Positions 400-60,432 are shown, counted from the first letter of the stretch. The stretch is DNA of 64,000 nt from Candidatus Saccharicenans sp. (GCA_024653215.1 JANLFU010000003.1:186001-250000), one strand, 5' to 3'. Made by a program: numbers and translations. Notes: a model not told the origin generated them from the sequence alone.

Positions 400-1119
400 A
401 TGGACGAGGGCAAGCCAGCTTACAACCGGGTGCTGCTGAAGCTTTCGGGTGAAGCGCTGCTGGGAGAACTGCCCTACGGAATAGATTTCAAGAGAACCCT
501 GGCCATCGCCCGGGAAATCAAGCAGGTTCACGAACTGGGCGTGGATGTGGCCATCATGATCGGCGGCGGAAACATCTTCCGCGGGTCCCGGGGCGTGGCC
601 GAGGGCATGGACCGGGTGGCGGCCGACCATATCGGGCTGCTGTCCACGGTCATCAACGGCCTGGCCCTCCAGGATGCCCTGGAAAAAGAAGGAATCAACA
701 CCCGCCTGATTTCGGCCCTTGAGATCAGGGCCGTGGCCGAGCCCTTCATCAGGCGCCGGGTGCTCCGGCACCTGGATAAGAGGCGGGTGATTATCTTTAC
801 CGCCGGGCTGGGCAGCCCCTATTTCACCACCGATACCGCGGCCGTCCTCAGGGCCCTGGAAATCAAGGCCGAAGTCATCCTGAAAGCCACCAAGGTGGAC
901 GGCGTTTACAGCGCCGACCCCATGGTTGAGGCCGGAGCCACCAGGTTCGATTCCATCAGGTTCCTGGAGGTCATCCAGCAGGAGCTCAAGGTGATGGACA
1001 GCACCGCCATCACCCTCTGCAAGGATAATAACCTGCCGATCATTGTCTTTAACCTGAATGTTCCCGGCAACATCAAGAGAGCCGTTCTGGGCGAGAAAGT
1101 CGGGACCAGGGTATCCTGA
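400..1119 (+). CDS. pyrH: UMP kinase
   Basis: Uridylate kinase, converting UMP to UDP with ATP in pyrimidine nucleotide synthesis. It has 239 residues, the normal size for the hexameric bacterial enzyme of the amino-acid kinase fold. Visible motifs in order: LLKLSGEAL near the N-terminus (phosphate binding), IGGGNIFRG (about 50-60), DRVAADHIGLLSTVINGLAL (about 70-90, UMP site), GLGSPYFTTDTAA (about 135-147) and ATKVDGVYSADP (about 168-179). The ATG at 400 is 15 bases after the tsf stop, so it is very likely co-transcribed with tsf and frr. Confidence 0.96.
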   Translation: MDEGKPAYNRVLLKLSGEALLGELPYGIDFKRTLAIAREIKQVHELGVDVAIMIGGGNIFRGSRGVAEGMDRVAADHIGLLSTVINGLALQDALEKEGINTRLISALEIRAVAEPFIRRRVLRHLDKRRVIIFTAGLGSPYFTTDTAAVLRALEIKAEVILKATKVDGVYSADPMVEAGATRFDSIRFLEVIQQELKVMDSTAITLCKDNNLPIIVFNLNVPGNIKRAVLGEKVGTRVS

Positions 1120-1152
1120 AACCCGCTCAAGGCTCAATCAAGGAGGAGCTTC

Positions 1153-1710
1153 ATGGTGAGAGATGTCCTGAAAGACCTGGAAAAAAATTTGAAAACCTCC
1201 ATCGAGCATTTCCGGAAGGAAATAAGCAAACTCCGCACCGGACGGGCCAACATCAGCATCTTCGAGGATATCAAGGTCATGTACTACGGGACACCGACCC
1301 CGGTCAACCAGGTGGCCACCATCGGGGTGCCCGACCCGACCCTGATCACCGTGCAGCCCTGGGACCCGACCCTGATGGAGGCCGTGGAAAAGGCCATCCG
1401 CTCCTCAGATTTTGGCTTCAATCCCATCAACGACGGCCGGGTGATCAAGGTCCCGATTCCACCCCTGGACGAAGAAAGGCGCCGGGAGCTGGCCAAGAAA
1501 GTCAGCAAGATGCTGGAAGAAGAAAAGACCACCCTCCGCAATATGCGCCGCGAGAGCAAGGAATACATAGAGAAGCTGGAGAAGGACAAAAAGATTACCG
1601 AGGACGATAAGTTCCAGGGCCTGGAAAAATTGCAGGAGCTGCTGGACCAGTACATCAAGCAGGCCGAGGAAGTAGCCGCGGCCAAGGAAAAGGAAATAAT
1701 GCAGGCCTGA
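1153..1710 (+). CDS. frr: Ribosome recycling factor
   Basis: Ribosome recycling factor, which with EF-G splits post-termination ribosomes. The 185-residue length is exactly that of the family. The sequence has the typical N-terminal helix with ISKLRTGRAN (about 24-33), the VATIGVPDPTLITVQPWD domain (about 53-70), GRVIKVPIPPLDEERR (about 95-110) and a helical C-terminal arm. A perfect AGGAGG at 1141-1146 lies 6 bases before the ATG. Last gene of the tsf-pyrH-frr unit; the next gene is convergent. Confidence 0.97.
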   Translation: MVRDVLKDLEKNLKTSIEHFRKEISKLRTGRANISIFEDIKVMYYGTPTPVNQVATIGVPDPTLITVQPWDPTLMEAVEKAIRSSDFGFNPINDGRVIKVPIPPLDEERRRELAKKVSKMLEEEKTTLRNMRRESKEYIEKLEKDKKITEDDKFQGLEKLQELLDQYIKQAEEVAAAKEKEIMQA

Positions 1711-1828
1711 TGGCCTGTGGTGGTTACGAAATTTTTCCCCGCCGGGTGGACCGCTTTATTTCTGGTTGACCATTCCTGACCGAGCAGCCTGTCGATTTAT
1801 ACGATTCTCTTGATTCTCTTTTGCCTTT

Positions 1829-2785
1829 TCAGGACCGGTTCCGGGCGAGCCAGTTGTCCATGGTCCCGAACCTGGTTCTGATGGCCACTCCCCAGCCGAC
1901 CAGGCTGACCACCAGGGAAAAGATGAAGCCCAGAACCGGGATCAGGCCAAGAAAGGTGACGATGACCAGTCCGATGACCGCGGTCCAGATGACATGCGGC
2001 ATTCTCTTCACTCCCACGGCCCTGAGGAATGATTCGCCGAAGAAATAGGAAAAGGCCGTTCCTCCAAAAACCTTGAGCACCAGGCCGGCCAGGATGGCCA
2101 TGAACAGAATCGGGATGCCTATGATTACAAAGAGGAGGAGGACTGACAGCATGATCAGGCCGGCGTAGATTATCATGGCCAGAAAACCCGTGCCCAGGGT
2201 CGGCCAGAAATCGGTGCGTATCTTGCCGGCGGCAAAGTAAACCTGCCTGGGGAAGATGCCGGCCACGAAAATGGTCAGCAGGATTCCGAAGAACAGGGAA
2301 ATCAGTTTCAAGGCCAGGAAGATCGTCCCCAGCTGGAAGAAAATTCCCTTGCGGAAAATTTCCGAGGCAAACTTCCCCCCGGTCGGAATGAAGACCGTAT
2401 CCTGGCCGATGGTACAGCCTGGCTCTTTCGCCATGGTTCCTCCCAGAACCACCAGGTCTTCGCGTATGACTGCCGTGGACCTTATAGTTACTTTGCTCCC
2501 GAATCCCACCACCGACCGGCCGACCTCGCCGCTGACCGTAACCTCTCCGCCGAAGACCACGACGCTTTCCTCGACCTTTCCTTCCACCACCACCCGGCTG
2601 CCGAAGGCCAGGATATTTTTCTGGGTTTCCCCGGGCGAGATGATGATTTCTTCCTTGAAGGTGGGCTGGGCGGTCCGGTCGAATTTATACCAGGCGGCCG
2701 GGGCCGTTCCGGCCAGGATTACGGCCATGGTGGCCAGGAGCGCCAGCTTTAGGGTGAAGGTAATATAATTCTTGCCTTTTTTCAT
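1829..2785 (-). CDS. Bactofilin-like/polymer-forming domain membrane protein
   Basis: A 318-residue envelope protein of unknown role. A signal peptide or first membrane segment (about 10-32) is followed by about 100 residues of short repeats rich in V, G and I, with a period like a bactofilin-type right-handed beta-helix (SVVVFGGEVTVSGEV, then SVVGFGSKVTI). The C-terminal half (about 150-305) holds four or five hydrophobic segments. The ATG overlaps the stop of the upstream anti-sigma gene (ATGA), so it is translationally coupled and the third gene of an ECF sigma operon. Its position suggests an envelope-stress target or sensor; this is inference. No enzymatic motif is visible. Confidence 0.75.
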   Translation of the reverse strand: MKKGKNYITFTLKLALLATMAVILAGTAPAAWYKFDRTAQPTFKEEIIISPGETQKNILAFGSRVVVEGKVEESVVVFGGEVTVSGEVGRSVVGFGSKVTIRSTAVIREDLVVLGGTMAKEPGCTIGQDTVFIPTGGKFASEIFRKGIFFQLGTIFLALKLISLFFGILLTIFVAGIFPRQVYFAAGKIRTDFWPTLGTGFLAMIIYAGLIMLSVLLLFVIIGIPILFMAILAGLVLKVFGGTAFSYFFGESFLRAVGVKRMPHVIWTAVIGLVIVTFLGLIPVLGFIFSLVVSLVGWGVAIRTRFGTMDNWLARNRS

Positions 2786-3360
2786 TTCTTCTCTCCTGTC
2801 GGATAGTTCGTCGGCCTGAGCAGCATCCAGATAAGGGCCAGGCTCATGACTCCCCCCAGGACCAGGGCGACCAGGCCCAGGCTGCCGGACGGAAAAACAT
2901 CGGCCAGCAACCTGGTCATTACCCCGGCCAGGATGCGCAGGGCCTTGATGAACCCGTAAGCCTGCTGGATGAGCCTGATGATGAGGTTGCTCAGGTCGGC
3001 GGCCAGGTTAAATATATTCTTAAATATCTGCAGACAGACCGGGAACAGGGCAGTTCTGGTACCCAGGGCCAGGCCCGCCACCATCAGGCTGAACAGAAGG
3101 TAAGCTCCCCCGGCCAGCCACAACCACAGCCTGACCGGAGATTTTAAGGGTGGCAGCCCGGCCATCACCCGCCCGGAAAAGTCGGGGGGCAAATCCAGTT
3201 TGGAGAGGCTGGAACTGGCTTCCAGGAAGAGGCGGCGGTCGGCCACCAACTGCCGGCAGCGGCAGCAGGTTTCCAGATGTTCTTCCAGCCGCAGCCGGTC
3301 CTCTGCCGGAAGCTCCCCGTCAAGGTAGGCGTAGATTTGAGTCAGGTCAGGGCAACTCAT
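2782..3360 (-). CDS. Anti-sigma factor with N-terminal zinc finger (zf-HC2 type)
   Basis: A 192-residue membrane anti-sigma factor for the sigma factor encoded just upstream. The N-terminal domain has the zinc-binding anti-sigma pattern (EEHLETCCRCRQL: His, then Cys-x-x-Cys), after YAYLDGELPAEDRL, the usual start of such domains. One membrane segment follows at about 78-105, and a further hydrophobic segment near the end (about 160-185). The start at 3360 is chosen because its ATG overlaps the sigma-factor stop (ATGA) and is preceded by TGGAGGAAAG; a longer upstream reading would have no such site. It should hold the sigma factor inactive until an envelope signal releases it. Confidence 0.88.
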   Translation of the reverse strand: MSCPDLTQIYAYLDGELPAEDRLRLEEHLETCCRCRQLVADRRLFLEASSSLSKLDLPPDFSGRVMAGLPPLKSPVRLWLWLAGGAYLLFSLMVAGLALGTRTALFPVCLQIFKNIFNLAADLSNLIIRLIQQAYGFIKALRILAGVMTRLLADVFPSGSLGLVALVLGGVMSLALIWMLLRPTNYPTGEKK

Positions 3361-3941
3361 CTTTCCTCCAGTCTGGATCGAAGCCATTCTCTGGCCTGGA
3401 AGACCCGGTTCTTGACCGTGCCCACGGGCAGGTGCTTGATGTCCGCGATCTCTTCATATGAAAAATCGTTCATGTGTCTGAGGACGAACAATTCCCTCAG
3501 GGTTTCCGGGAGCTGGCTTAGGGCCTGCTCGATCCACTCCATCATTTCCTTCTTTTCGTAATTATCTGACACCGACGGCTCGAGGTCAGGTAGTTGCGGC
3601 TGCAGGTGTTCATCATCTTCGGGTTCAGCATCGATAGACACCAGGGGCAACTTCTTCTTTCGCCAGTGGTCGATGAGCAGGTTGGAAGCGATCCGGAAAA
3701 GCCAGGTGGAAAACTGGTATTTTTCTTTGTAGGTGTGGAGAGCGGCATAGGCTTTCAGGAAAACTTCCTGGGTAAAGTCCAGACTCAATTCTCTCTCCTG
3801 TACCAGCCGGCCGAAATAGTTGAACAGCGGCTGCTGGTATTTTTTAACCAGAAGCTCGAAGGCCGACCGGTCACCTTTGAGACTGCGGCGCACCAGAATT
3901 CTGTCCTCATCGGGCACCATGTTTGGCTTCTGTTTATTCAT
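3357..3941 (-). CDS. ECF-family RNA polymerase sigma factor
   Basis: A 194-residue group 4 sigma factor of the RpoE/SigW type. Region 2 is at about 25-95 (LLVKKYQQPLFNYFGRL; FTQEVFLKAYAAL; FSTWLFRIASNLLIDHWRKK). An acidic linker (about 100-130) is followed by region 4 at about 135-190 (LSQLPETLRELFVLRH; FSYEEIADIKHLPVGTVKNR, a helix-turn-helix). It overlaps its anti-sigma gene by 4 bases. A lolA-like gene ends 38 bases upstream on the same strand. The ATG at 3941 has no clear ribosome binding site; the ATG at 3920 is an alternative. Confidence 0.93.
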   Translation of the reverse strand: MNKQKPNMVPDEDRILVRRSLKGDRSAFELLVKKYQQPLFNYFGRLVQERELSLDFTQEVFLKAYAALHTYKEKYQFSTWLFRIASNLLIDHWRKKKLPLVSIDAEPEDDEHLQPQLPDLEPSVSDNYEKKEMMEWIEQALSQLPETLRELFVLRHMNDFSYEEIADIKHLPVGTVKNRVFQAREWLRSRLEER

Positions 3942-3979
3942 ACGAAAAACCGGCGGACGGGTTTAAGGAAAATTGCCGG

Positions 3980-4729
3980 TCACTTAATGGCACCGGCCTC
4001 GATTATTTCACAGTCAGGGGGGAGGCGCAGGTCAAATATTTCGTCGGATATTTTCCGGCCGGTTACCATCCGGCTGAAGTGGTATTCGAGCTTGCCGCCA
4101 GCCGGCTCAAAGAACACGGCCTTGGTGATGAGCCAGGTCTGCCGGTCGATTTCCAGGAGGATATAGGAGAACTGGCCTTCCTCCACGGGCTGGAGACGGA
4201 GCTGGTAGACATTTTTTCGGTCGCTGGGGAAAGAGTTGAACTCTATCCGGTAGCGTTCAGACAGGGAAAAATTCCCCGAGAGGAGTCCCAGGACTTCCGA
4301 TTCCAGGACCTCGGACTGGGCGGCGTTTTTTATAAGTTGCTTGTCCTCGGGAAAGTAGAGCCAGAAATTGTTATCCTTCAGGAGGAAAATCTGTTTTTCC
4401 GGGGTGCTGTATTCCCAGCGCATCCGGTTGGGGCGGCGGATAAAAACCTGTCCCTGTCCTTTCATTGGCTCGGGCGAGCTATTGGAGTAGTAGAACTGCC
4501 TGAAGTCAGCCCTGAGGGTGGTAACGGATTTCAGCCTGCTTTCCAGCCGGCGGGCAACCTCGTCGGCGGTCAATTCTGCGGCGGTGGCTATCAAACCCAG
4601 AGAACCGAGCCAGGTCAGGAGCAGAAAGAACCGGAGCGCCTTCCAGACTAATCGGCCGGGCCTTTTCCCGGCCGGGACTGCTTTTCTGCTTGCGGTCATG
4701 GGGCCTCGTTTGATCAGGGTGTTGCCCAT
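3980..4729 (-). CDS. lolA: Outer-membrane lipoprotein carrier protein, LolA family
   Basis: Periplasmic chaperone of the LolA/LolB fold, 249 residues, expected to carry lipoproteins across the periplasm. The N-terminus is unusually long and basic (about 30 residues) before the hydrophobic signal segment (about 31-50). The mature part starts near AELTADEVARRLESRL and has the LolA-type pattern: LRADFRQFY (about 75), GQGQVFIRRPNRMRWEY (about 95-111), then QIFLLKDNNFWLYFPEDKQ. The ATG at 4729 has AAGGA upstream; the ATG at 4699 would give a more normal signal peptide. It precedes the ECF sigma operon on the same strand, which hints at regulation of lipoprotein traffic by that sigma factor. Confidence 0.85.
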   Translation of the reverse strand: MGNTLIKRGPMTASRKAVPAGKRPGRLVWKALRFFLLLTWLGSLGLIATAAELTADEVARRLESRLKSVTTLRADFRQFYYSNSSPEPMKGQGQVFIRRPNRMRWEYSTPEKQIFLLKDNNFWLYFPEDKQLIKNAAQSEVLESEVLGLLSGNFSLSERYRIEFNSFPSDRKNVYQLRLQPVEEGQFSYILLEIDRQTWLITKAVFFEPAGGKLEYHFSRMVTGRKISDEIFDLRLPPDCEIIEAGAIK

Positions 4730-5003
4730 ATTTTCCTTGAGCGGGCTCTTGATGTCAACTCGCCGCTTCCCGGATGATGGGGTTAACAGGCGGGCCCGCT
4801 GTGGGAAAATTTCCCCGGTTCGCCTTCAGTAACAGTTACTCTTCTGGCTTGCTTTGGCCAAGCTGTTAATTTGTCGGTCGGGCACCTTTTACTGCCCGTG
4901 ATGGACCTTGTTTTTAATGGTCCTGATCATGAATTTCTATCCCGGGGTAACGGTTGGGGTTTGGGGTCAGAACCTACTGCCGGAGAACAAGGGCAGGGGA
5001 AAG

Positions 5004-5060
5004 CGCCGGGGGCCTCCCCCATGACGCGGGAAGACGGGGGGCCCGGGTCTTGGGCCGGCG
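5004..5060 (+). other. GC-rich self-complementary segment in the lolA-TPR gap
   Basis: The 421-base gap between the divergent lolA-like and TPR genes holds no convincing gene. This piece can fold: CGCCGG (5004-5009) pairs with CCGGCG (5055-5060); inside are GGGGG-CCT-CCCCC (5008-5020) and GGCCC (5040-5044) with GGGCC (5052-5056). Some of these pairings exclude each other. I recognise no RNA family. It lies upstream of the promoter candidate at 5085, so it need not be transcribed with the TPR gene. Confidence 0.25.
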
Positions 5061-5084
5061 GTTTCCGGTAAAGATGAATTTCCC

Positions 5085-5113
5085 TTGACAAGGAAGGAGA
5101 AAGTGGATACAAG
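5085..5113 (+). promoter_or_regulatory. Candidate sigma-70 promoter of the TPR gene
   Basis: TTGACA at 5085-5090, 17 bases, then TACAAG at 5108-5113. The -35 is perfect and the -10 matches four of six. It lies about 40 bases before the ATG at 5151. Confidence 0.4.
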
Positions 5114-5150
5114 ATTAAAGCATCTCTCACAATATTCAAGGAGGGAATGG

Positions 5151-5957
5151 ATGCAAGCCAGAAATCACGGGTTAATTTTTCTGGTGATTCTGGGGCTCAG
5201 CCTCCTGGCTGGACCCGGCCTGAGCCAGACGGCCGAGGAATTCATCAAGAGCGGCGATGAATATTATTCCAAGTGGGAAGACCAGAAGGCGCTGGATGAG
5301 TACCTGAAAGCGCTTGAAGTTGAACCCAAAAATTATGAAGCTCTCTGGAAGGCAGCCAGGGGTTACGTGGACGTGGCCGACCTGATGACCGGCACGGGAA
5401 AGGAAGTGGAAAAGCAGAAGTTTGAGATGTACGCCAAGGCCGAGCGGTATGCCAGGCAGGCCATCTCGGTTAACCCCAACGATACCTGGGGGCATTTCTT
5501 CCTGTCGGCAGCCCTGGGCAAGAAAGTCCTGATGCTGGGGAAAAAGGAGCAGATCGACGCCTCCAAGCAGGTCAGGACGGCCGTGGATAAAGCCATAGAG
5601 CTCGACCCCAATAACGACCTGGCCTACCATGCTCTCGGCCGCTGGCACCGCCGGATGGCCGAAATCGGCGGGGCCAAGAGGGCCCTGGGCAGCCTGATTT
5701 ATGGCTCCATACCCAAGGGCTCAATGGAAGAATCGGAGAAATGGCTCAAAAAGGCAGTGGAGCTCAAACCCGATTACATTAACCATCACCTGGAACTGGG
5801 GCGGACCTATGTGGCCATGAAGAAATATGACCTGGCCCGCCAGGAATTCAACCGGTGCCTGGAACTGCCCGAGGCCTCGGCCAAGGATAAGCAGCTTAAA
5901 GAAGAAGCCAGAGAAGAGCTGGCCAACCTCGCCAAGAAAAGCTCGAAAGAAGATTAA
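5151..5957 (+). CDS. Exported TPR-repeat protein (RMD1-like)
   Basis: A 268-residue exported protein made mostly of tetratricopeptide repeats, probably a periplasmic protein-interaction scaffold. A signal peptide (about 1-26, hydrophobic core IFLVILGLSLLAG) ends near LSQ. TPR-like units follow: AEEFIKSGDEYYSKWEDQKA, YLKALEVEPKNYEALWKAA, then YARQAISVNPNDTW, VDKAIELDPNNDLAYHALGR and WLKKAVELKPDYINHHLELG. The stretch IYGSIPKGSMEESEKWLKKA resembles the eukaryotic/bacterial 'regulator of microtubule dynamics' TPR family. The ATG at 5151 is chosen because AAGGAGGG ends 6 bases upstream and it places the signal peptide at the N-terminus. Partner unknown. Confidence 0.82.
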   Translation: MQARNHGLIFLVILGLSLLAGPGLSQTAEEFIKSGDEYYSKWEDQKALDEYLKALEVEPKNYEALWKAARGYVDVADLMTGTGKEVEKQKFEMYAKAERYARQAISVNPNDTWGHFFLSAALGKKVLMLGKKEQIDASKQVRTAVDKAIELDPNNDLAYHALGRWHRRMAEIGGAKRALGSLIYGSIPKGSMEESEKWLKKAVELKPDYINHHLELGRTYVAMKKYDLARQEFNRCLELPEASAKDKQLKEEAREELANLAKKSSKED

Positions 5958-5998
5958 TCAGGGCTCTATCCTGGAACCGATCCGGGGGCCGGGCTGAT

Positions 5999-55196: not shown

Positions 55197-55229
55197 TTTA
55201 TGTTTGCTCTGTTTTAAGAGAGGAAATTG

Positions 55230-55952
55230 ATGCAGAACATCTGGCTCTTGGCCGGGACGGCCGCCACCCTGGGCTTTGTGCATACCCTGATTGGTCCGGA
55301 CCATTACCTGCCCTTTATTGTTATCAGCCGGGCCAGGAAATGGAAGTTCGGGAAGACGCTGTGGGTTTCATTCCTGTGCGGGCTGGGGCATGTTCTGAGC
55401 TCGGTCGTTCTGGGCTTTCTGGGAATTGCCCTGGGAATGACTGTCGGTCACCTGGAAAAGGTGGAATCAACCCGGGGCAATATCGCTTCCTGGCTGCTTA
55501 TCGGTTTCGGGCTAGCTTACCTGGTCTGGGGCTTGAGGAAAGCTTACCGTTCCCGGTCCCATGAGCATGTCCATTACCATCCGGACGGAGAAGTCCATGT
55601 CCATACCCATACCCATGAAGATGGCCACCTTCACCTGCACGAAGAGGGCGAGCCGGCCGGCAGCAGGAAGAACATCACTCCTTGGGTGCTTTTCCTGATC
55701 TTTGTCTTTGGCCCCTGCGAGCCGCTGATTCCCCTGGTGATGTATCCGGCAGCTCAGCATTCCACCAGCGGGGTTATCCTGGTGACCGCGGCCTTCGGAC
55801 TGACCACCATCCTGACCATGCTGACCATCATTGCCCTGTCGGCCTGGGGCTTGAGCTTTGTGCGTCTCGGTGTTCTGGAGCGCTACTCTCACGCCCTGGC
55901 CGGCGGCCTGATTCTCATCTCCGGCCTGGCCGTTCAGTTCCTCGGCCTTTAA
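55230..55952 (+). CDS. UreH/NicO-like nickel/cobalt-type membrane transporter with His-rich loop
   Basis: A 240-residue protein with about six hydrophobic segments in two halves. TM1 carries GFVHTLIGPDHYLPFIVISR (HxxxGPDH, like the HX4DH motif of NiCoT/UreH-type metal transporters). The central loop (about 110-142) holds 11 histidines (HEHVHYHPDGEVHVHTHTHE and the next few residues), a likely metal buffer. The second half has VFGPCEPLIPLVMYPAAQHS, again typical. Probably exports or imports Ni2+ or Co2+ at the cytoplasmic membrane. ATG at 55230 (GAGAGGAAA upstream), 33 bases after tRNA-Ala; a TTG one codon earlier is less likely. Confidence 0.8.
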   Translation: MQNIWLLAGTAATLGFVHTLIGPDHYLPFIVISRARKWKFGKTLWVSFLCGLGHVLSSVVLGFLGIALGMTVGHLEKVESTRGNIASWLLIGFGLAYLVWGLRKAYRSRSHEHVHYHPDGEVHVHTHTHEDGHLHLHEEGEPAGSRKNITPWVLFLIFVFGPCEPLIPLVMYPAAQHSTSGVILVTAAFGLTTILTMLTIIALSAWGLSFVRLGVLERYSHALAGGLILISGLAVQFLGL

Positions 55953-56973: not shown

Positions 56974-58035
56974 TTAGAGCGGACGGCTAATATTGCTGCG
57001 GTTAATGATGATATCTTTAATGGCCTTGACGGAACGGTCGGAGAAAAAATCCATGGCCATAAAGACGGCAAACCGGCCGCCATCTTGGTTCGTCTTATCA
57101 TAGAGAAGGGCTTCAAGGAAATCGTTTCTGTTAAACAGTTCGGATACGGAATAAACCGCCCGGTAACCGTCTGCCCCGACGATAATTATGTATCCTGCTC
57201 TTAGGTATTCCTGGTCCGGCTGGAAATACTTGCCAACAGTTTGTCTCAACGAGACGCCCGAAAAAAATTTAAGGCCATGAAAACCGCGGCCTCGGCCAAA
57301 AAAGACCGTCGGCAAAACAAGCACAGGCAGATTTCCGGGCAGAGATCCAATCTTGGCTAATTCCTGCTCGGCCCTGATCAACTTGATATTTTCTGAGTAC
57401 AGGCGGGATTTTCCCTTCAAGACGGGTTTGGATAGTGGGCAGGAATGAACGATAATCCGGACCGGACTCTGGATGTTCCTTTCCGCATAGAGGTCGTTGG
57501 CGGCCACCACTTTGCTTTCCTCAGGCAGGGGCCAGGTTTCCCCGGTGGCTGAAGGAATGATGGGTGCAACCCGGGCCGCAATAATAATCCGGTGCAAGTT
57601 AATGGGATAAAAAACTTCGCCCCAGCTAAAGATTACTTTTTCGCCTGCTTTGTTTTCAATTATTATTAACAAGTCGATGGGAGAAGAAAACTCCTTTTCA
57701 TTCTGTTTTTGAATAATCTGATCCTTAAGGATGTCGAATAGAGAATATCCCTGATAGACATAGGCCCCAATAAAAATAGTCTTATTTTTGTCTAACTTGG
57801 CCTCGCGCACCTGGACCTGGTGAAGAGGCATCTGGCTTAAATCGGCCAGTCCCGGTTTGGATACTTCTCCGGTTATTTCGATTTGGTTAATGGGTAGGGC
57901 TTTGAAAGGAACGTTGTCGTAAAAATCATTGTTTTCCGGCACCGGGGCTTTTTGAGCTAATAAACCGGGAGCCTGCAATAAGACTGAAAGGATAACTGTA
58001 AACCAGATTGGTCTTAAACCTGAATTGTGTTTCAT
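56974..58035 (-). CDS. Exported tandem sulfite-oxidase (molybdopterin)-fold-like protein
   Basis: A 353-residue protein with a signal peptide (FTVILSVLLQAPGLLAQ). The mature protein looks like two copies of the oxidoreductase molybdopterin-binding (SUOX) fold. First, INQIEITGEVSKPGLADLSQ with MPLHQVQV, YQGYSLFDILKDQI and the later FSWGEVFYPINL. Second, FFSGVSLRQTVGKYFQ, GADGYRAVYSVSEL and an ending with RSVKAIKDIII. The Cys that binds molybdenum in sulfite oxidases is not at its usual place; one Cys occurs in VHSCPLSKP. So a binding rather than redox role is likely. It lies 34 bases after the TonB receptor gene on the same strand. ATG at 58035 follows AGGGAGA. Assignment by pattern only. Confidence 0.6.
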   Translation of the reverse strand: MKHNSGLRPIWFTVILSVLLQAPGLLAQKAPVPENNDFYDNVPFKALPINQIEITGEVSKPGLADLSQMPLHQVQVREAKLDKNKTIFIGAYVYQGYSLFDILKDQIIQKQNEKEFSSPIDLLIIIENKAGEKVIFSWGEVFYPINLHRIIIAARVAPIIPSATGETWPLPEESKVVAANDLYAERNIQSPVRIIVHSCPLSKPVLKGKSRLYSENIKLIRAEQELAKIGSLPGNLPVLVLPTVFFGRGRGFHGLKFFSGVSLRQTVGKYFQPDQEYLRAGYIIIVGADGYRAVYSVSELFNRNDFLEALLYDKTNQDGGRFAVFMAMDFFSDRSVKAIKDIIINRSNISRPL

Positions 58036-58069
58036 ATCATTTCTCCCTAATTGGCGAGTCATTTGTTAT

Positions 58070-60022
58070 TCAGAGTCCAGTATGAAAACCAAAGCCTATT
58101 TCAATCCTCCGGGAGGAAACAGGATATCCGGGTTCGGTGAAATAAGCTCTGTTGAAAAGATTTTCCACCTTTAAGAATATTGAGCCGGACCTGAAGAATT
58201 TTTCAAAAGATAGATTGGCAGTTACATAAGCCGGAACATTGACCATTTCATTGCTTATGACAATCTCAGCCTTGGAAGCGCCGATCAGCCATACAGCCAG
58301 AGCAATGTTTTCTGCCCTGAAGTAGTTCAGAAGCAAGCTAACCTGGGAAGTGGGGATCAGATCCAGCTTTCTATTTTCGGTCAGATTCCTGGCTTTAAGA
58401 TAAGTATATTGAAGCTGAATATTAAAATCGCCGATTGATTTATCGGTCTCAAGCTCCAGACCCCGAATCCTGGCCTTGCCCACATTAACATATAGTCTGG
58501 TGCCGTCAGGCTGGCGGATAACGCTGATAAAATCGCGGTAATTTGAGGTGAATAAGGCCAGGCAGGAGTCAACCCAACCATGATAGGCGGTTCCAAACTC
58601 AAAGGTACGGCCAACTTCATCTTTAAGGTCAGGGTTGCCGCTAGTTGAACTATAAAGGGAACGCATCGACGGAAAGCGCGATTTTTGGGCATAGGAAAGA
58701 TGAAACTCAATAGGGGGCTGTGGCCTGAATTTTAAGCCAATTATCGGGTTCAGAGAGGTTCGATGGCCTCCCGCCTGTTTTTGCAGGTAATCAAGGCTTA
58801 GACCCCCGAGGAGATGCCATCTGGGCGTCAATTTCCATTCGTCTTCCAGGCCGAACGAATAAGTATTGTGTTTATAGTATTCCCAGGGTGAAGTCTCAGA
58901 GGCCTGTTGCTTGACCTTATCCAAACGACCGTTGAGGCTGAATCGCAGCTCATGATTTGTCCTGGGATTAACGGTTGCAAGGAAAAAGGCACCAGCTGAG
59001 TAGTTCTTATATATTGATTCCCAGTTTAGTATGCTGTAGGTAGCGTCTGTGTAGGCATCGAGGACATTGTAGTAGTTGATATAATATGTTCTGATTTTAA
59101 GAGTTCCGGACTTAAATAGAGGGAAGGTGCCGCCCAGGCCAAGAATGAATCTCTGCCAATCCTTAAATCTCCAATATCGGGGTGAATAATAGGCAGTGGC
59201 CACCGGCACACCATAAGCGGAATCGTAAAAAGAAGTCTGTAAGAGGATTTCGCTCCTTTGCCCGGGGAAAAAGTAAACCTTTCCACTGAAATAATTGTTC
59301 CGGTAATCAGTATTTGGAAAGAGCTGAGTTGCTCCAGAATCTTTGAATTTATAGCCCTCTGTTTCCTCGTGGGAGGTAGCCAGCTTGAGGCTGAAGTGCT
59401 GACTCACGTAGGTTCCGCTTCCTGAAAAGCTGAAGCTTGAGGTTGGGCCCAGTCTGGTACGCAGCTCCAGGCTGTTTTCCTGCGGCCTTCGGGTCAGAAC
59501 CTCCACGATTCCCCCCATGGTGTTGGCCCCGTATAAGACCGAGGAAGGGCCTTTGGTTACCTGGGCATATTCAACCTCGAGGCTGGGGATGGTTCTTAAA
59601 TTGTACAGATTAAAATAAGGTTCATAAATGGGAATTCCATCCAGCAACAGGGTAGATTTGTCATTGTCCAGGCCCCTGATTTTTACATGCGCTTCGGCTT
59701 TGGAACCGGTGGTAACATAGGTTCCAGGGGCGAAAGAAAGCACCTCGGCAATATTCTTTGATTTAAAAAGCTCAAGAACATCAGGACGAATGACGAAAAC
59801 CGAAGCCAAAGGTTTTTGTTCAGGGGAAGGAGCGGTTACCAGGATTCCTTCGGTTCTGACCCTGGCCGGCTTTTCTTCCTCTTTTGTCTGTCCCTTTTTC
59901 TGACTGGTAGATTGTTCCTGGCCGCCTTCAGTCGTGGCTGGCAAAAAAGAAACTGAAAAAAAGAAAAATAAGAAAAGAAAAACAAGAGAGATTAAAAAAT
60001 GGGATCTGGATTGGTAGGGCAT
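58070..60022 (-). CDS. TonB-dependent outer-membrane receptor (BtuB/siderophore-type)
   Basis: A 650-residue TonB-dependent receptor without the carboxypeptidase-like domain. Signal peptide about 8-30 (FLISLVFLFLFFFFSVSFLP), a charged linker, then the plug (about 60-175): SVFVIRPDVLELFKSKNIAE, VLSFAPGTYVTTGSKAEAHV, KIRGLDNDKSTLLLDGIPIY and VLYGANTMGGIVEVLTRRPQ. The barrel ends with RRIEIGFGFHTGL. The substrate might be a metal chelate or cofactor. ATG at 60022 follows AAAGGAGA; an in-frame ATG at 60109 is rejected, as it would place the structured RNA inside the coding part. Its leader holds a strong candidate riboswitch. Confidence 0.87.
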   Translation of the reverse strand: MPYQSRSHFLISLVFLFLFFFFSVSFLPATTEGGQEQSTSQKKGQTKEEEKPARVRTEGILVTAPSPEQKPLASVFVIRPDVLELFKSKNIAEVLSFAPGTYVTTGSKAEAHVKIRGLDNDKSTLLLDGIPIYEPYFNLYNLRTIPSLEVEYAQVTKGPSSVLYGANTMGGIVEVLTRRPQENSLELRTRLGPTSSFSFSGSGTYVSQHFSLKLATSHEETEGYKFKDSGATQLFPNTDYRNNYFSGKVYFFPGQRSEILLQTSFYDSAYGVPVATAYYSPRYWRFKDWQRFILGLGGTFPLFKSGTLKIRTYYINYYNVLDAYTDATYSILNWESIYKNYSAGAFFLATVNPRTNHELRFSLNGRLDKVKQQASETSPWEYYKHNTYSFGLEDEWKLTPRWHLLGGLSLDYLQKQAGGHRTSLNPIIGLKFRPQPPIEFHLSYAQKSRFPSMRSLYSSTSGNPDLKDEVGRTFEFGTAYHGWVDSCLALFTSNYRDFISVIRQPDGTRLYVNVGKARIRGLELETDKSIGDFNIQLQYTYLKARNLTENRKLDLIPTSQVSLLLNYFRAENIALAVWLIGASKAEIVISNEMVNVPAYVTANLSFEKFFRSGSIFLKVENLFNRAYFTEPGYPVSSRRIEIGFGFHTGL

Positions 60023-60033
60023 AACACTTCTCC

Positions 60034-60130
60034 TTTCCAAAATGGGAGGCAAAGCCGTTTCCAGCTTTACCCTATCGGCCCAGTGGCTTGGCTGAAAAGC
60101 TGTAGCCATCAGGACTCGGAGTCATGGAAA
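60034..60130 (-). promoter_or_regulatory. Structured leader RNA of the TonB receptor, Moco/Tuco riboswitch-like
   Basis: Read on the minus strand. The outer stem pairs TTTCCA (complement of 60125-60130) with TGGAAA (complement of 60034-60039), and the latter overlaps the Shine-Dalgarno AAAGGAG. Inside are hairpin TGGCT/AGCCA (60104-60108 with 60089-60093) and a 10-bp hairpin closed by a GAAA tetraloop (60062-60071 with 60048-60057), followed by GCCTCCC. The stretches CTCCGAG, GCCACTGGGCCGATAGG, CTGGAAACGG and GCCTCCC match what I remember of the Moco RNA motif (Rfam RF01055). The pairing is seen in the sequence; family and ligand are inferred and no model was run. Cobalamin riboswitch is a weaker alternative. 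A closed stem would block translation. Confidence 0.6.
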
Positions 60131-60432
60131 TTATATTTTCTTTTCACCAAGAGTCAATAAAAAAAATTTAGCAGCCTTGATTACTGTGATGGCTTCTCAC
60201 TTGCATGGGGCCTGGTGGACCTAATTTCAGTATCGTAACAATCCGGAGGAACTTATTAATTGGTCAACCATTCTGGCAGGAAAAAGGCATGCCGATAAGA
60301 GGTAATCGGACCTGGCCTGATAATAGCCCATATATATTCAAACCGATCAAAGCACCGTTTGTTCATAAGAGGCCGGGTCTGAACTTAAACTCGGGAAATT
60401 GACCCTCGGAGTCCCACTGCCGATGAGGTCAA

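Follow-up and report, generated by a model that had tools for sequence, protein, structure and literature searches.

The 64,000-nucleotide stretch that we analysed (hereafter the window; GCA_024653215.1 JANLFU010000003.1:186001-250000) comes from a 2.6-Mb genome of the Candidatus Aminicenantes / Saccharicenans group of Acidobacteriota. It contains on its minus strand a two-gene operon that encodes a TonB-dependent outer-membrane receptor of 650 aa (58070-60022) and, after a gap of 34 bases, an exported protein of 353 aa (56974-58035). A covariance-model search placed a Moco/Tuco riboswitch (RF01055) directly at the start of the receptor gene (60014-60133), with a score of 72.1 bits against a cut-off of 36. 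The match covers model positions 1-135, with only the P3 stem deleted. In the founding description of this RNA the P3-less form correlates with use of the tungsten cofactor, in 17 of 19 organisms (PMC2408646). Consistent with this architecture, the genome carries a TupA-like gene and three AFOR_C (tungsten aldehyde:ferredoxin oxidoreductase type) genes; it also has two PF00384 genes. Its only other RF01055, also without P3, lies at C32:98970-99089 and heads an operon that we read as tupABC, moeA, moaA, moaC, MOSC, mog and mobB.

The 3' strand of aptamer helix P1 contains AAAGGAG (60036-60030), the Shine-Dalgarno of the receptor gene, seven bases before the ATG at 60022. The same AAAGGAG, mostly with 5-8 bases to the start codon, recurs at nearly all receptor-type riboswitches of the class, which points to control of translation. 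The operon is bounded by a sigma-70-like promoter, TTGACT-16-TATAAT (60157-60130, 11 of 12 consensus matches), and by an intrinsic-terminator-like hairpin of 13 pairs with a T-rich tail (56966-56937), both of them predictions from consensus matches only. The receptor has plug (PF07715, 3.3e-19, 69.8 bits) and barrel (PF00593, 1.4e-35, 124.4 bits) domains, and the genome has two PF01618 genes for an ExbB-type energiser. Although the receptor scores moderately against general heme and B12 receptor models, it falls far below the NCBIfam cut-offs of all equivalogs, with 119.7 against 599.7 for the B12 receptor, 132.8 against 316.85 for heme and 45 against 1200 for PqqU, and siderophore receptor models were rejected in the same way. 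About 1 kb beyond the operon, on the other strand, lies a membrane protein (55227-55952, plus strand) with weak DsbD/NicO-type similarity and a long histidine-rich stretch (HEHVHYHPDGEVHVHTHTHEDGHLHLHEEG), possibly a metal transporter.

An earlier sequence-only reading had described this receptor, its exported partner and a Moco-like leader RNA, and had likened the partner to two fused sulfite-oxidase folds without the metal-binding Cys; our analysis confirms that observation. It had also taken the low GC of the two genes as a sign of transfer as a unit. The GC of the pair (about 0.42-0.50) is indeed lower than most of the flanks, but equally low stretches occur elsewhere in the window and the receptor groups with others of its genus, so recent transfer as a unit is not supported.

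The predicted fold of the exported protein

The 353-aa protein begins with a probable signal peptide (57952-58035, MKHNSGLRPIWFTVILSVLLQAPGLLAQ), read from the sequence, and relatives with CxxCH motifs also point to the periplasm. Direct searches with the protein or its profile returned nothing above chance: there was no Pfam family at E up to 1, no NCBIfam hit and only a chance match in the PDB (E 1.6 for the protein alone). PDB searches with two relatives, at loci L276 and L285, likewise gave only chance hits. By contrast, HMM-HMM comparison showed that the first half (57400-57909, residues 43-212) and the second half (56977-57420, residues 206-353) are homologous to each other (E 5.7e-6) and to an MsrP/PF00174 profile, with E 9e-6 for the first half and a weaker E 5.9e-4 for the second. 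In addition, the relative at L276, from another acidobacterial family, matches the family profile at E 3.6e-56 and hits PF00174 with 49 bits in two stretches. The assignment of two diverged SUOX-type (PF00174-like) domains, for which a different fold would have counted against the sequence-only reading, thus survives, but indirectly and from sequence profiles only.

No Cys is found at the metal-ligand position in either half. In the second half, at about the place of the Cys loop of SUOX enzymes, lies a conserved glycine/arginine loop, GRGRGFHG (57274-57297), within a GxGxGFHG pattern. Its Gly residues are nearly invariant in both of our alignments, A1 and A2, although A2 contains one misframed row (L279) and one partly misframed row (L282) and was used only for a rough reading of conserved residues. 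The protein therefore differs from the SUOX/MsrP family in being a tandem pair without the metal-binding Cys and without a direct Pfam hit.

Relatives of the protein show that the family is varied. Double-SUOX proteins at L275, L276, L279, L280, L281, L282 and L284 carry a CxxCH heme-binding motif between the two domains, with cytochrome c assembly or ResB-like genes beside two of them (L276 and L280). Those at L274, L275, L277 and L278 are fused to a tetrapyrrole methylase domain (PF00590 in L274), and L275 has a TonB receptor directly upstream. These features leave open that the protein is a periplasmic redox or release factor rather than a binding protein, one that reduces or dismantles an imported complex, with heme in many relatives. 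We consider this unlikely, as the window protein and its class relatives have no CxxCH and no invariant Cys. Single Cys-less PF00174-type domain proteins occur at L285, L286, L287 and L288; in L287 and L288 a TonB receptor of the same broad clade is adjacent, so the pairing may be wider than the double-domain form.

Conservation of the riboswitch linkage

To examine whether the arrangement is conserved, we searched 142 genomes of the class, which are metagenome assemblies, and found 34 homologues of the 353-aa gene (SUOX2) in 32 genomes and the riboswitch in 94 genomes. Of the 34 homologues, 25 have a riboswitch upstream on the same strand, usually at about 2 kb with the receptor between and in three cases directly in front of the SUOX gene; four are cut by contig ends and five lack it. 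The chance expectation is roughly 0.0007 per gene, although the genomes are related and the 25 are not independent. Homologous pairs thus do keep the RNA, whose absence would also have counted against the sequence-only reading. Of 136 riboswitches examined, the first recognised gene is the TonB receptor in 56, tupA in 29, moeA in 15 and the SUOX gene in three, making outer-membrane receptors the commonest target of this riboswitch in the class.

Outside the class, L273 and L280 repeat the order riboswitch, receptor, SUOX gene. At L279 the receptor and SUOX gene lie divergent to tupABC, and L276 has an HTH gene of the LysR/ModE type, the receptor, a cytochrome c assembly gene and the SUOX gene. 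All these receptors form one clade with support 1.0, apart from the eight other receptors of the window genome. Neighbours across the clade are W/Mo genes, namely tupABC, mobB and AOR. Together with the receptor-model scores and the predominance of TonB sites among riboswitch targets, this disfavours the possibility that the receptor imports heme, B12 or a siderophore with only its regulation tied to cofactor status, which we regard as very unlikely. At L088 (genome G024, 599-5971) the riboswitch, a TonB receptor, a sodium:solute symporter (PF00474) and a 605-aa AOR-type gene follow one another in one run on the same strand.

Riboswitch-controlled TonB receptors have been described for B12 and thiamine (an example of both is in PMC5317091). 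The targets of RF01055 in its founding paper were molybdate/tungstate transporters, cofactor synthesis and cofactor-using enzymes, with a ribosome-binding site inside the aptamer in some members, and no TonB receptor is mentioned there (PMC2408646). The genome paper of Pelobacter carbinolicus remarked that TonB-type receptor genes lie near metal-binding or molybdopterin-binding proteins, riboswitches for cobalamin and molybdopterin, c-type cytochromes and tetrapyrrole methylases, and suggested metal transport (PMC3543383). This remark in a genome annotation, which in that passage defines no family, makes no cross-genome test and does not propose cofactor uptake, is the earliest notice that we found. 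Searches of the open-access literature on molybdate or tungsten and TonB and on cofactor salvage returned no other described system, so that the claim in the sequence-only reading that no such system was known is nearly right.

Uptake of cofactor or of metal

To distinguish metal from cofactor as the imported compound, we asked which genomes carry the riboswitch. MoaC was found in 80, MoaA in 83 and MoeA in 83 of the 142 genomes, but AFOR_C in 128. Fifty-four genomes have none of the three synthesis genes, and 42 of these keep AFOR_C genes. The riboswitch is present in 21 of those 42 and in none of the 12 without AFOR_C (Fisher p 0.0016, not corrected for shared ancestry). In 20 of the 21 it precedes the receptor, and ten of these 20 genomes are at least 91% complete with low contamination. 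As would be expected of a cofactor salvage system, the receptor is therefore present and under a cofactor riboswitch in users of the cofactor that lack synthesis genes, as judged by MoaA, MoaC and MoeA alone. In six of these genomes (G044, G046, G082, G083, G088 and G089) a second riboswitch precedes genes of a BtuFCD-like importer, comprising a Peripla_BP_2 protein, a FecCD permease and an ABC ATPase where these were scanned. MobB genes sit beside the receptor in several of these genomes.

These results suggest that the receptor family is an uptake route for the metal-pterin cofactor itself. In this view, when Tuco or Moco is scarce the aptamer does not hold its P1 helix, the Shine-Dalgarno is free and the receptor and its partner are made, whereas plentiful cofactor lets P1 hide the Shine-Dalgarno. 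The receptor, powered by TonB/ExbBD, would bring a metal-pterin compound, most likely Tuco/Moco itself, into the periplasm. There the double-SUOX protein, whose fold in enzymes cradles the metal-pterin but which has lost the metal-ligating Cys, would bind and shield the compound and hand it on. The module would supplement synthesis from tupABC-moa in the window genome and be the source of cofactor for aldehyde:ferredoxin oxidoreductases in relatives without moaA, moaC and moeA. Our analysis establishes the riboswitch, the gene order, their conservation and the architecture of the ribosome-binding site. The direction of control is inferred from the E. coli Moco RNA, and ligand sensing by this RNA, transport, the substrate and the binding role of the 353-aa protein are likewise inferences.

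That the operon is an uptake module tied to tungsten/molybdenum-cofactor supply is, in our judgement, very likely; within that, uptake of the cofactor is our first choice, with a probability of about 0.45. The proposal of the sequence-only reading, a receptor for a Mo/W complex or pterin compound with a periplasmic binding protein, is partly supported: a receptor and periplasmic partner tied to Mo/W or cofactor supply are well supported, whereas the binding role remains inferred.

The main rival, which we rate as possible and somewhat less likely, is uptake of a tungstate or molybdate chelate (metallophore), with the double-SUOX protein stripping or binding the metal and TupABC, an inner-membrane ABC importer for the oxyanion, or ModABC carrying it across the inner membrane. 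This rival is serious for the subclade of the window. The window genome has a full synthesis operon and places tupABC under the same riboswitch class, and the SUOX gene is found mostly in genomes with synthesis genes (29 of 32). Genomes without them usually have the receptor alone, so what is inferred from those genomes may not carry over. The tupABC genes at L279 and the LysR/ModE-type gene at L276 also fit metal uptake, the glycine/arginine-rich loop could bind an oxyanion, and FecCD-type importers can also carry molybdate, as does MolBC of Haemophilus. Free Moco, moreover, is unstable (PMC9793310). However, metal alone is of no use in the 20 AOR-bearing genomes that keep the riboswitch and receptor but have no MoaA, MoaC or MoeA.

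The system resembles BtuB-BtuFCD under the B12 riboswitch in having a cofactor riboswitch in front of a TonB receptor, in the riboswitch-controlled BtuFCD-like genes of six relatives and in being found in cofactor makers and non-makers. It differs in that the sensor is for Moco/Tuco, the receptor is far below the BtuB equivalog cut-off and the periplasmic partner is SUOX-like in this genome. A broader and still tentative proposal is a bacterial uptake system for the intact tungsten/molybdenum-pterin cofactor, in which a TonB receptor, a Cys-less SUOX-domain pair or BtuF-type protein in the periplasm and, in some relatives, a BtuCD-like importer are all under the Tuco riboswitch, allowing repeated loss of cofactor synthesis in the class. 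The prevailing view, stated for Moco, is that cells make the cofactor de novo, and dietary uptake in Caenorhabditis elegans, for which no receptor or transporter is named, is a precedent for its passage between organisms, in an animal (PMC9793310). A cofactor-sensing riboswitch kept in genomes that use the cofactor but have lost its synthesis genes, and placed almost only before one receptor, makes bacterial cofactor uptake directly testable, names the genes concerned and gives a candidate role for Cys-less SUOX-domain proteins.

Half of the AFOR-bearing genomes without synthesis genes, 21 of 42, have no detected riboswitch. Among these are two single-contig genomes, G003 and G004, with several AFOR_C genes but no MoaA, MoaC, MoeA or RF01055 detected; the neighbourhoods of their AOR genes show no receptor of this clade and no riboswitch. 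Conversely, in genomes G060 (locus L314) and G071 (L315), full tupABC-moe-moa operons have no detectable RF01055, while the receptor-SUOX operon in the same genomes keeps it.
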